Below are positions 3,667 to 24,116 of a stretch of 64,000 bases of DNA, piece by piece. The DNA comes from Planomicrobium okeanokoites (GTDB lineage: Bacteria > Bacillota > Bacilli > Bacillales_A > Planococcaceae). The first letter of the stretch is position 1. Each line of letters begins with the position of its first letter. The stretch is from positions 620,001-684,000 of the forward strand of contig NZ_QQRS01000001.1 in assembly GCF_003428875.1 (NCBI RefSeq), read 5' to 3'. The notes below the pieces were generated by a model. That model saw nothing but the letters and a program-made list of their open reading frames with translations. It was not told the DNA's origin and searched no databases. A program made the position numbers and the translations under genes.

Positions 3667-3724
3667 AGAAAAGGCACACTTAAAACAGCGTTCCGTTTAC
3701 AGTAAACGACACACGTCCGCACCT

Positions 3725-3853
3725 TCACCTTCTCCCATCCAGACTATACTGTCGGCTTTGGAATCTCACCAAATCCTGCGTTTTACGGCTCGCGGGCTTA
3801 TGAACAATCGTTCAATTACCGCCGGTAGGGAATTGCACCCTGCCCCGAAGATG
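3725..3853 (-). promoter_or_regulatory. FMN riboswitch (RFN element)
   Basis: Read on the minus strand, this stretch contains the RFN consensus segments in order: ATCTTCGGGGCAGGGTG, the CCCTACCGGCGGTAAT block, the AGCCCGCGAGCC block, GATTTGGTGAGATTCC, and the closing GTCTGGATGGGAGAAGG. It precedes the riboflavin transporter gene, the expected target. It binds FMN and is expected to lower ribU expression when flavin is plentiful. Confidence 0.96.
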
Positions 3854-3860
3854 AATCGAT

Positions 3861-22275: not shown

Positions 22276-22561
22276 AAGAAATTTGCTTATCTCTAATAAT
22301 CCAAAATAATGCAGGGGGCTGATACGATTTTAATTGTATTCGCCCTTCTTTTGTAATAGACTGAATAGTAAGAATTATTCGTATAATAAAAAAGTAGTAG
22401 TTCTAAAGTTGCTTGGTTTCAAATCAATGGCATGTTCTAATGGTATAAGGCCCTCGCCTTTCAATAATTGAATCACGATGTATATTTACAGCCAGAAGAT
22501 GTTCAGCCACCCCAGATAAGCTGAGTGTAAAAAATTATCGATAGAAAGGTCAGCATATCTA
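22276..22561. other. Intergenic stretch between yqkF and murE-like gene
   Basis: 286 nt of AT-rich sequence with no open frame that has a ribosome binding site and no clear terminator. TTTCAA-16-TATATT around 22461-22488 is a weak promoter candidate for the murE-like gene. Confidence 0.4.
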
Positions 22562-24019
22562 ATGAAACTAACTCAACTAATTAAAGGACTCATACCCCAA
22601 AACAGCATAGAAGAAGATTTACATGACTTGGTTATCAAAGGCATAGCTGACAGCTCCCAGGAGGTCGAAGAGGGGTTTGTTTTTATTGCCATAAAGGGCT
22701 ATAAGGACGACGGGCACAATCATATCGCGCACGCCATTCAAAAAGGCGCTTCGTTAATAGTCGGTGAACAGCAGCTGGAAGAATTGCCTATCCCTTATCT
22801 TCGTGTGGAAAATGCACGGATGGCCCTAGGGATCCTTTCCAAAAACTTCTATGGAAATCCTGCCAGCGGCAAGTTGATGATCGGCATAACCGGGACTAAT
22901 GGCAAAACAACAACCAGTTATCTTGTAAAGCATCTTCTTGAGCAGAATGGCATTACATGCTCCGTTATGGGAACAATACAAAATATCGTCAATGGTGAAT
23001 CGATTAAAAGTGCCAATACCACCCCCAGTTCGCTGATCCTGCAAAAATTGCTTGCAGATAGCCATGATGATGCGGTCGTGATGGAAGTCTCTTCACACGG
23101 ATTGACTCAACATCGTATAGAAGGAATCGAATTTGATGTCTGCATGTTTACGAACCTTCATCATGAACACCTCGATTATCACGGTTCAATGGAAAGTTAC
23201 TACGAAGCTAAGTCGATTCTTTTCGAACATCTGAAGCCGACGGGTACAGCAATCATAAATACAGATGATGAATGGGGAGAAAAGCTGGACCGGGAACTCC
23301 GTGCAAAAGGACGGGACGTCTGGAGCATCGGACAGGCTCAGCACAGCAGATTCCGTATAGAGTCTTTCGACATGGAGCATTCGACCCTTTGTCTGGCGGG
23401 CGAAGAAAAAACATTAATCCAGTCTCCTATGGCAGGCATCCATAACATCTATAATTCGCTGATGGCATACGCAGCTGCTTTGGCGGTTGGTGTAAAAAAA
23501 GATGATATCCTCTCCAGTATAAAAAATTTTCCGGGCGTCGAAGGCAGATTTGAAACATCCAAAACTGGAAAAGGCGTTATTGTAATTGTAGATTACGCTC
23601 ATACGCCCGATGCGGTTTTTCATTGCCTGACCACCGCCAAAGAAGCGGGTGCCAAGCAGATTACACACATCTTCGGCTTCAGGGGTGACCGTGATTCTTC
23701 CAAGAGACGGGAAATGATCAAGATTACATCGAATATCAGTGATCGGTATATCATCACCACTGATGATCTGAATTCAGTGCCCGCTGAAGAAATGCAGTTG
23801 CATTATATAGAATTGAACGAGCGGTACGGCAATGAAAAAGGGCTCATTCAGATGGACCGGACCATGGCGATTAAAGATGCGATCGACAGCAGTTCCGAAG
23901 GCGACTGGGTTGTGATAACCGGAAAAGGGCATGAAAAATACAGTCATCAATTCGAGCTGCCGACTGAATCCGATAAGGAAACGGTGAAGTTCATGGTTGA
24001 ACCGCCAAGCGCCAAATGA
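22562..24019 (+). CDS. murE: MurE-type UDP-MurNAc-peptide ligase, divergent paralogue
   Basis: 485-residue Mur ligase that should add the third residue to UDP-MurNAc-L-Ala-D-Glu. ATP site GTNGKTT is at 111-117, the central block HEHLDYHGSM at 201-210 (most MurE have DHLDYH) and the carbamylated-lysine position is Lys217 in YEAKSIL. The selectivity motif is DDLN at 401-404, where meso-DAP enzymes have DNPR and L-Lys enzymes DNPA or DDPN-like residues, so L-lysine or another amino acid is likely. The gene stands alone, away from any division/cell-wall cluster, on the opposite strand to its neighbours. It could be a second MurE beside a canonical one elsewhere. AAAGG precedes the ATG. Confidence 0.82.
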   Translation: MKLTQLIKGLIPQNSIEEDLHDLVIKGIADSSQEVEEGFVFIAIKGYKDDGHNHIAHAIQKGASLIVGEQQLEELPIPYLRVENARMALGILSKNFYGNPASGKLMIGITGTNGKTTTSYLVKHLLEQNGITCSVMGTIQNIVNGESIKSANTTPSSLILQKLLADSHDDAVVMEVSSHGLTQHRIEGIEFDVCMFTNLHHEHLDYHGSMESYYEAKSILFEHLKPTGTAIINTDDEWGEKLDRELRAKGRDVWSIGQAQHSRFRIESFDMEHSTLCLAGEEKTLIQSPMAGIHNIYNSLMAYAAALAVGVKKDDILSSIKNFPGVEGRFETSKTGKGVIVIVDYAHTPDAVFHCLTTAKEAGAKQITHIFGFRGDRDSSKRREMIKITSNISDRYIITTDDLNSVPAEEMQLHYIELNERYGNEKGLIQMDRTMAIKDAIDSSSEGDWVVITGKGHEKYSHQFELPTESDKETVKFMVEPPSAK

Positions 24020-24044
24020 CTGGCCGCTCCTTTTTGACATATTG

Positions 24045-24098
24045 AAAAACCGCTGTGGAAAGAAGAGTTGCCTCACTCTTTCCACAGCGGTTTTATTT
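24045..24098. terminator. Bidirectional terminator between murE-like gene and guaC
   Basis: Long stem AAAACCGCTGTGGAAAG / CTTTCCACAGCGGTTTT with an inner AGAGT/ACTCT helix. T-rich tails lie on both sides, and the two genes converge on it. Confidence 0.9.
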
Positions 24099-24116
24099 AT
24101 GGTCTAAAGTTTTCTG

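Follow-up and report, generated by a model that had tools for sequence, protein, structure and literature searches.

A 64,000-nucleotide stretch of Planomicrobium okeanokoites DNA (contig NZ_QQRS01000001.1, positions 620,001 to 684,000; hereafter the window) carries a solitary gene for a MurE-like ligase, P0001, in which the motif DDLN takes the place of the DNPR signature found in enzymes that add meso-diaminopimelic acid (meso-DAP). On the strength of its separate clade and changed amino-acid pocket, P0001 counts as a novel MurE-family variant. As to function, we infer from these same features that it may be an active accessory MurE-type ligase adding L-lysine or L-ornithine, a reading that we hold with about even confidence. 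The parts of the gene that matter for this argument are given below; counts refer to 56 aligned sequences (rows) of the clade, selected by score to P0001 and not by pocket residues, and reference numbering is that of Escherichia coli MurE.

22562..24019, plus strand: MurE-like ligase of the DDLN clade (P0001), 485 residues, from its open reading frame, domain matches, and clade trees
22886..22912, plus strand: P-loop ITGTNGKTT, residues 109-117, the ATP site; T110 to T117 invariant in the clade
23015..23026, plus strand: NTTP, residues 152-155, the site for the acceptor (UDP-N-acetylmuramoyl dipeptide, UDP-MurNAc-dipeptide), equivalent to E. coli T157/T158; both Thr in 56/56
23210..23212, plus strand: Lys217, equivalent to E. 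coli Lys224, the carbamylated lysine of Mur ligases; 56/56
23672..23707, plus strand: FGFRGDRDSSKR, residues 371-382, with clade-specific Phe and Arg replacing C385 and G386; each 56/56
23762..23773, plus strand: DDLN, residues 401-404, replacing DNPR 413-416; D 56/56, D 53/56, L 54/56, N 50/56
23921..23941, plus strand: GKGHEKY, residues 454-460, in which Glu458 is equivalent to E. coli E468; Glu in 56/56

That this is a divergent MurE-like gene, as the original prediction had it, is confirmed. The reading frame is intact, with no stop codon inside its 485 codons, all three Mur ligase domains are matched (Pfam), and the score against TIGR01085 (murE) is 395.1 bits, above the curated cut-off of 257.3. 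The residues that mark the family, i.e., the P-loop, T157/T158, S184, R192, K224, D356, and H359, are present in 56/56 rows, that of P0001 included. P0001 also scores 427 bits against NF001126 (cut-off 373), an NCBIfam model whose name, 2,6-diaminopimelate ligase, conflicts with the pocket; it falls below the cut-offs of the other DAP-ligase models listed in the profile scan, and reaches 271.8 bits against the NCBIfam L-lysine ligase model NF010628, for which the cut-off is 536. For DDLN-clade proteins, the database name 2,6-diaminopimelate ligase is probably wrong.

Within the clade, T157, T158, S184, S185, Q190, R192, K224, R341, D356, H359, D413, G464, and E468 are kept in all 56 rows, and R389 (Arg377 of P0001, inside FGFRGDRDSSKR) in 53. 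Changed throughout are C385 (to Phe), G386 (to Arg), and A463 (to Thr), while N414 has become Asp in 53/56, P415 Leu in 54/56, and R416 Asn in 50/56. DDLN thus aligns with DNPR 413-416 of E. coli, as had been proposed, and P0001 lacks the DNPR motif of meso-DAP MurE; this upholds the suggestion that the pocket motif argues against meso-DAP. Enzymes for DAP bind its free second carboxylate through the Asn and Arg of DNPR, and in Staphylococcus aureus MurE, Asp-406 and Glu-460 hold the ε-amine of lysine (PMC3829189); the Asp and Glu of the latter type, D413 and E468, are both kept in 56/56. Loss of the pocket Arg and Asn would remove the grip on the second carboxylate of meso-DAP, and the retained Asp and Glu would hold a side-chain amine. 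A diamino acid without a second carboxylate is expected because the former pair is lost and the latter kept, the predicted substrate most likely being L-lysine, with L-ornithine as the alternative. In Planococcus, where the wall is lysine-based and another MurE is present, such an enzyme, if expressed, would serve as a spare or conditional source of precursor. A second peculiarity singled out beforehand, EHLDYH for the usual DHLDYH, is indeed present but not distinctive: 40 of the 56 rows have Glu at that position and the other 16 have Asp, and EHLDYH is ordinary variation of the clade.

A tree of MurE sequences, proposed at the outset as a check, sets P0001 apart from canonical DAP-type MurE and from S. 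aureus MurE alike. A careful tree of 63 rows, of which 36 are clade sequences, separates the DDLN clade from the remaining rows by a branch supported at 100/100. These rows were picked after a quick tree, with long branches and near-duplicates left out; in that quick tree (89 rows, 56 from the clade), the clade received a Shimodaira-Hasegawa-like approximate likelihood ratio support of 99. Constraining the clade to join the lysine-type branch and its paralogues was rejected at the borderline by the approximately unbiased test (p-AU 0.043), for a grouping named after the first tree had been seen. Members occur in 40/261 genomes of the family (E <= 1e-88) and in 25/398 genomes of the class (E <= 1e-86), the latter being no unbiased frequency as the class sample is rich in close relatives. 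A phylum-level search does not yield a clade count, for canonical clostridial MurE also passed its threshold (DNPR in 25 of the 26 loci read, DNCR in one). P0001 is not peculiar to Planococcus: it is one member of a clade spread patchily across Bacilli, in chromosomes as well as on plasmids, the latter in Planococcus, Peribacillus, Cytobacillus, and Paenibacillus. Its closest named relatives, at 84-85% identity, are in Planococcus sp. MER TA 32b, Planomicrobium sp. Y74, and P. halotolerans SCU63. Among seven window-type orthologues, pairwise ratios of nonsynonymous to synonymous substitution (dN/dS) are about 0.04-0.13, rough values given that dS is near or past saturation, and these orthologues are under purifying selection. 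The conservation of DDLN in a 56-sequence clade and the low dN/dS together mean that chance is no explanation for the motif. Some plasmid copies are broken or contain sequencing errors, since the annotation splits one (L086, NZ_CP041325.1) into several short fragments and a second (G076:C2:326692-327810) has an internal TAA.

The genome contains three MurE-type genes, P0001 among them. Another, at G000:C1:919621-921006, adjoins prfC (named from its sequence), reads TTDDPRDE, groups with S. aureus MurE in the tree (support 96/87), and has a counterpart by score in 36/36 same-genus genomes compared; because of this grouping and ubiquity, it is presumed to be the housekeeping, lysine-adding MurE. 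The S. aureus reference (L109) is an unverified record labelled phage, evidently a host sequence, with a DNPA motif that fits S. aureus MurE. P0001 therefore need not be invoked to account for a lysine wall, and it was rejected as housekeeping MurE, that place being filled by another gene in 36/36 genomes. The second murE that was to be sought in the division cluster is likewise not there: mraY and murD are present without murE, and the second copy is the one beside prfC. The third copy (G000:C22:134588-135898; L003:1387-2880) reads VDHPGYND, has SGCINGA in place of GKGHE, and adjoins a flotillin-like gene; judged by score, most genomes of the genus contain a likely counterpart, and its motifs recur beyond the family in two hosts (L218, L219). 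The lysine-type branch of Planococcus and S. aureus has as its sister another MurE paralogue clade (L053-L057; G003, G033, G032, G008, G020), marked by TTNNPG and DKGHE. An additional, DNPR-bearing MurE is present in some Planococcaceae hosts (L214, L215, L217; G283, G169, G154). Lysine-wall spore formers place DAP in the spore cortex, and these extra enzymes may be cortex ligases; both the motif and the tree speak against such a role for P0001, which was rejected. Planococcus is reported not to form spores, and the wall of strain Y74, which holds two copies of the clade gene, is of the L-Lys-D-Glu type (PMC7294307). Among twelve further hosts, the canonical MurE could be read in ten, seven DNPR-type and three DDPR-type, the latter three all Planococcaceae; a single clade pocket thus coexists with both host types, as read from their motifs.

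Some relatives lie in copper islands. Two or more of seven copper-type families (YdhK, four-helix copper-binding, F510_1955, CcdA, TlpA, P-type ATPase, and multicopper oxidase), chosen after the plasmid annotation had been viewed, are found near 16/65 clade loci and near 0/17 control loci. The 65 loci include near-duplicates and even one plasmid counted twice (L081, L123); the controls are small in number, some of them shorter, and drawn largely from a single genus. This association is exploratory. A narrower first count, by clustering within 9 kb, gave 15 copper-context loci, and on the clade tree the context changes state six times, on several branches. The plasmid islands also carry spare envelope genes, i.e., those for penicillin-binding protein 2, a rod-shape protein, lipoteichoic acid synthase, SpoIIP, Lgt, and D,D-carboxypeptidase. 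The last of these is on the strand of the ligase in 13 loci, and in nine begins 3-26 bp downstream of it. In the neighbourhood scan, neither the copper-type families nor D,D-carboxypeptidase were found near the window copy or its six orthologues; the genome does encode YdhK, on a contig other than that of the window. In one branch (L050, L051, L052, L122), an NhaC-type antiporter is directly upstream of the ligase; the one scanned also scores, short of the cut-off, against the ArcD arginine/ornithine antiporter model, which may point to the amino acid used by the ligase. A literature search for a second MurE or a link between MurE and copper returned nothing relevant, a Listeria "murE2" match being a footnote mark. 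Depletion of Cys as a sign of copper tolerance was dropped after comparison by eye (P0001 has four, the housekeeping copy five).

An accessory lysine or ornithine ligase is supported by the invariant acceptor and catalytic residues, by the Asp413/Glu468 pair, and by the separate, fully supported clade, as well as by the low dN/dS, the coexistence with canonical MurE, and the lysine wall of strain Y74. Several points weigh against it. The A409R change alone conferred no DAP activity on S. aureus MurE (PMC3829189), so the four-residue motif is not the sole determinant of specificity. Asp at position 414 is also found in canonical Planococcus and Thermotoga maritima enzymes, and says little by position alone. 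The clade Arg386, near R389 in sequence, could approach a carboxylate from a different direction and hold it, in which case DAP or another acidic amino acid would be admitted. No assay of any DDLN-clade enzyme was found in the literature, and an AlphaFold2 model of P0001 built from four sequences is not usable (mean predicted local distance difference test score 47.7). Taken to its end, the point concerning Arg386 amounts to a meso-DAP ligase after all, with Arg386 substituting for Arg416. The invariance of the former where the latter is lost, the retention of R389, and the NF001126 match would all fit; however, Asn414 and Arg416 are both changed in nearly all members, and such an enzyme would be of little use in a non-sporulating, lysine-wall Planococcus and would duplicate the DNPR enzyme of other hosts, which leaves it improbable in our estimation.

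A possible, though distinctly less favoured, explanation is that P0001 makes the same product as the host MurE and is kept or spread for metal tolerance or extra precursor under envelope damage, in which case the pocket changes would serve robustness and not a new amino acid. The copper families near clade loci on several branches speak for it, as do the other spare envelope genes on plasmid islands and the lgt-type gene (for prolipoprotein diacylglyceryl transferase) in an Enterococcus copper island (PMC4511184); yet one pocket is unlikely to match both DNPR- and DDPR-type host enzymes, and copper genes are absent near the window copy and its six orthologues. In Planococcus this explanation could overlap with an accessory lysine or ornithine ligase, a spare role and lysine activity both being possible. 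We consider it rather unlikely, if slightly less so than the meso-DAP alternative, that the clade represents horizontally spread wall remodelling, whereby the ligase would insert a different third stem residue in DAP- or lysine-wall hosts and, with the adjacent D,D-carboxypeptidase in some relatives, alter the wall under metal or envelope stress. About on a par with the meso-DAP ligase is an enzyme with no part in making peptidoglycan precursors, which would attach an amino acid to a different acceptor in the manner of other Mur-fold ligases: the fold has been recruited for cyanophycin synthetase, MurT, and folylpolyglutamate synthase, all distant matches of P0001, and some relatives adjoin the NhaC-type antiporter instead of wall genes. 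Against this, the UDP-MurNAc-dipeptide-binding residues are kept in 56/56, and the next gene in nine relatives encodes a wall enzyme, D,D-carboxypeptidase; the acceptor is presumably the usual one. Very improbable is an inactive or regulatory Mur-like protein. P0001 does match PAP11, and a MurE-like protein is a subunit of plastid RNA polymerase, but few if any of the 56 rows depart from the intact P-loop, carbamyl-lysine, DYAH, and GKGxE motifs, and selection is strong.

The gene stands alone and, as predicted, outside any cell-wall cluster; its surroundings comprise pdp, deoB, xerD, fur, nudF, an aldo-keto reductase gene, guaC, and an acetyl-CoA acetyltransferase gene, names assigned by reading the sequences. 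Its placement on the opposite strand is true relative to guaC, which follows convergently on the minus strand, and not relative to the preceding aldo-keto reductase gene, also on the plus strand. Two further features flank it.

22276..22561, plus strand: upstream intergenic region, with conserved blocks among seven orthologues
24046..24094, no strand assigned: long hairpin with a T-rich tail behind it, in the gap between the ligase gene and guaC; -31.9 kcal/mol, z -9.4

The GAAAGGTCAGCAT block ahead of the start and blocks farther upstream are conserved in all or most of the seven orthologues. The hairpin is probably a terminator, and may act bidirectionally; it is absent from the list of a simple terminator scan. 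Among genus genomes, the reductase gene is found in 46/46 searched and guaC in 44/46. The order reductase-ligase-guaC is shared by seven carriers of the window subclade. In seven non-carrier neighbourhoods, guaC is absent or farther off, and a VTT-domain gene, a cation transporter, a methyltransferase, or other cargo follows the reductase; in other non-carriers, judged by coordinates alone, guaC is located elsewhere. The region after the reductase (window 22276-24116, compared with L194-L200) is thus a variable site among Planococcus species, occupied by a VTT-domain protein, cation transporter, methyltransferase, or MurE-like gene, and the simplest reading is that the window subclade acquired the ligase gene there once. 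Recent foreign origin left no signal in composition (GC fraction 0.453 versus 0.450 in the window), and megablast found no close plasmid copy of the window gene. A phage or defence gene was discounted (no PADLOC match; a single weak PHROG match, to a family whose function is not known), as was phage origin, matches in phage records being <=36% identical and mostly unannotated fragments. Riboswitch control was set aside in turn, the sole Rfam match within the window being a flavin mononucleotide riboswitch elsewhere (3723-3856, minus strand, 123.5 bits).

The third stem residue of peptidoglycan is usually regarded as species-fixed and set by MurE. Were a mobile second MurE with a re-made pocket to be at work, acquired genes could change or supplement that residue. 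The invariant Phe-Arg and the DDLN changes would also provide a natural test set for the determinants of MurE specificity, which were left open by the S. aureus work (PMC3829189).

Compared with known systems, P0001 resembles canonical meso-DAP MurE (E. coli, Bacillus, and Clostridia; TIGR01085) in its three domains, P-loop, carbamyl-lysine, acceptor residues, and GKGxE loop; it differs in having DDLN and not DNPR, Phe/Arg and not C385/G386, and in being an accessory enzyme outside the division cluster, in a separate clade. With the L-lysine MurE of S. aureus it shares the lack of the Arg that binds the DAP carboxylate, and with both that enzyme and the Planococcus TTDDPR copy the Asp and Glu for a side-chain amine, whereas their motifs are DNPA and DDPR, respectively, and both branch away from the DDLN clade. 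T. maritima MurE (PDB 4bub), the second-best PDB sequence match of P0001 (247 bits), likewise has Asp at 414, but its DDPR keeps the Arg and it lies outside the clade. Finally, the plasmid relatives recall the envelope genes of copper islands, such as the lgt-type gene of Enterococcus (PMC4511184), in that an envelope gene travels with copper resistance, whereas the window copy lies on the chromosome and has no copper genes in its vicinity.
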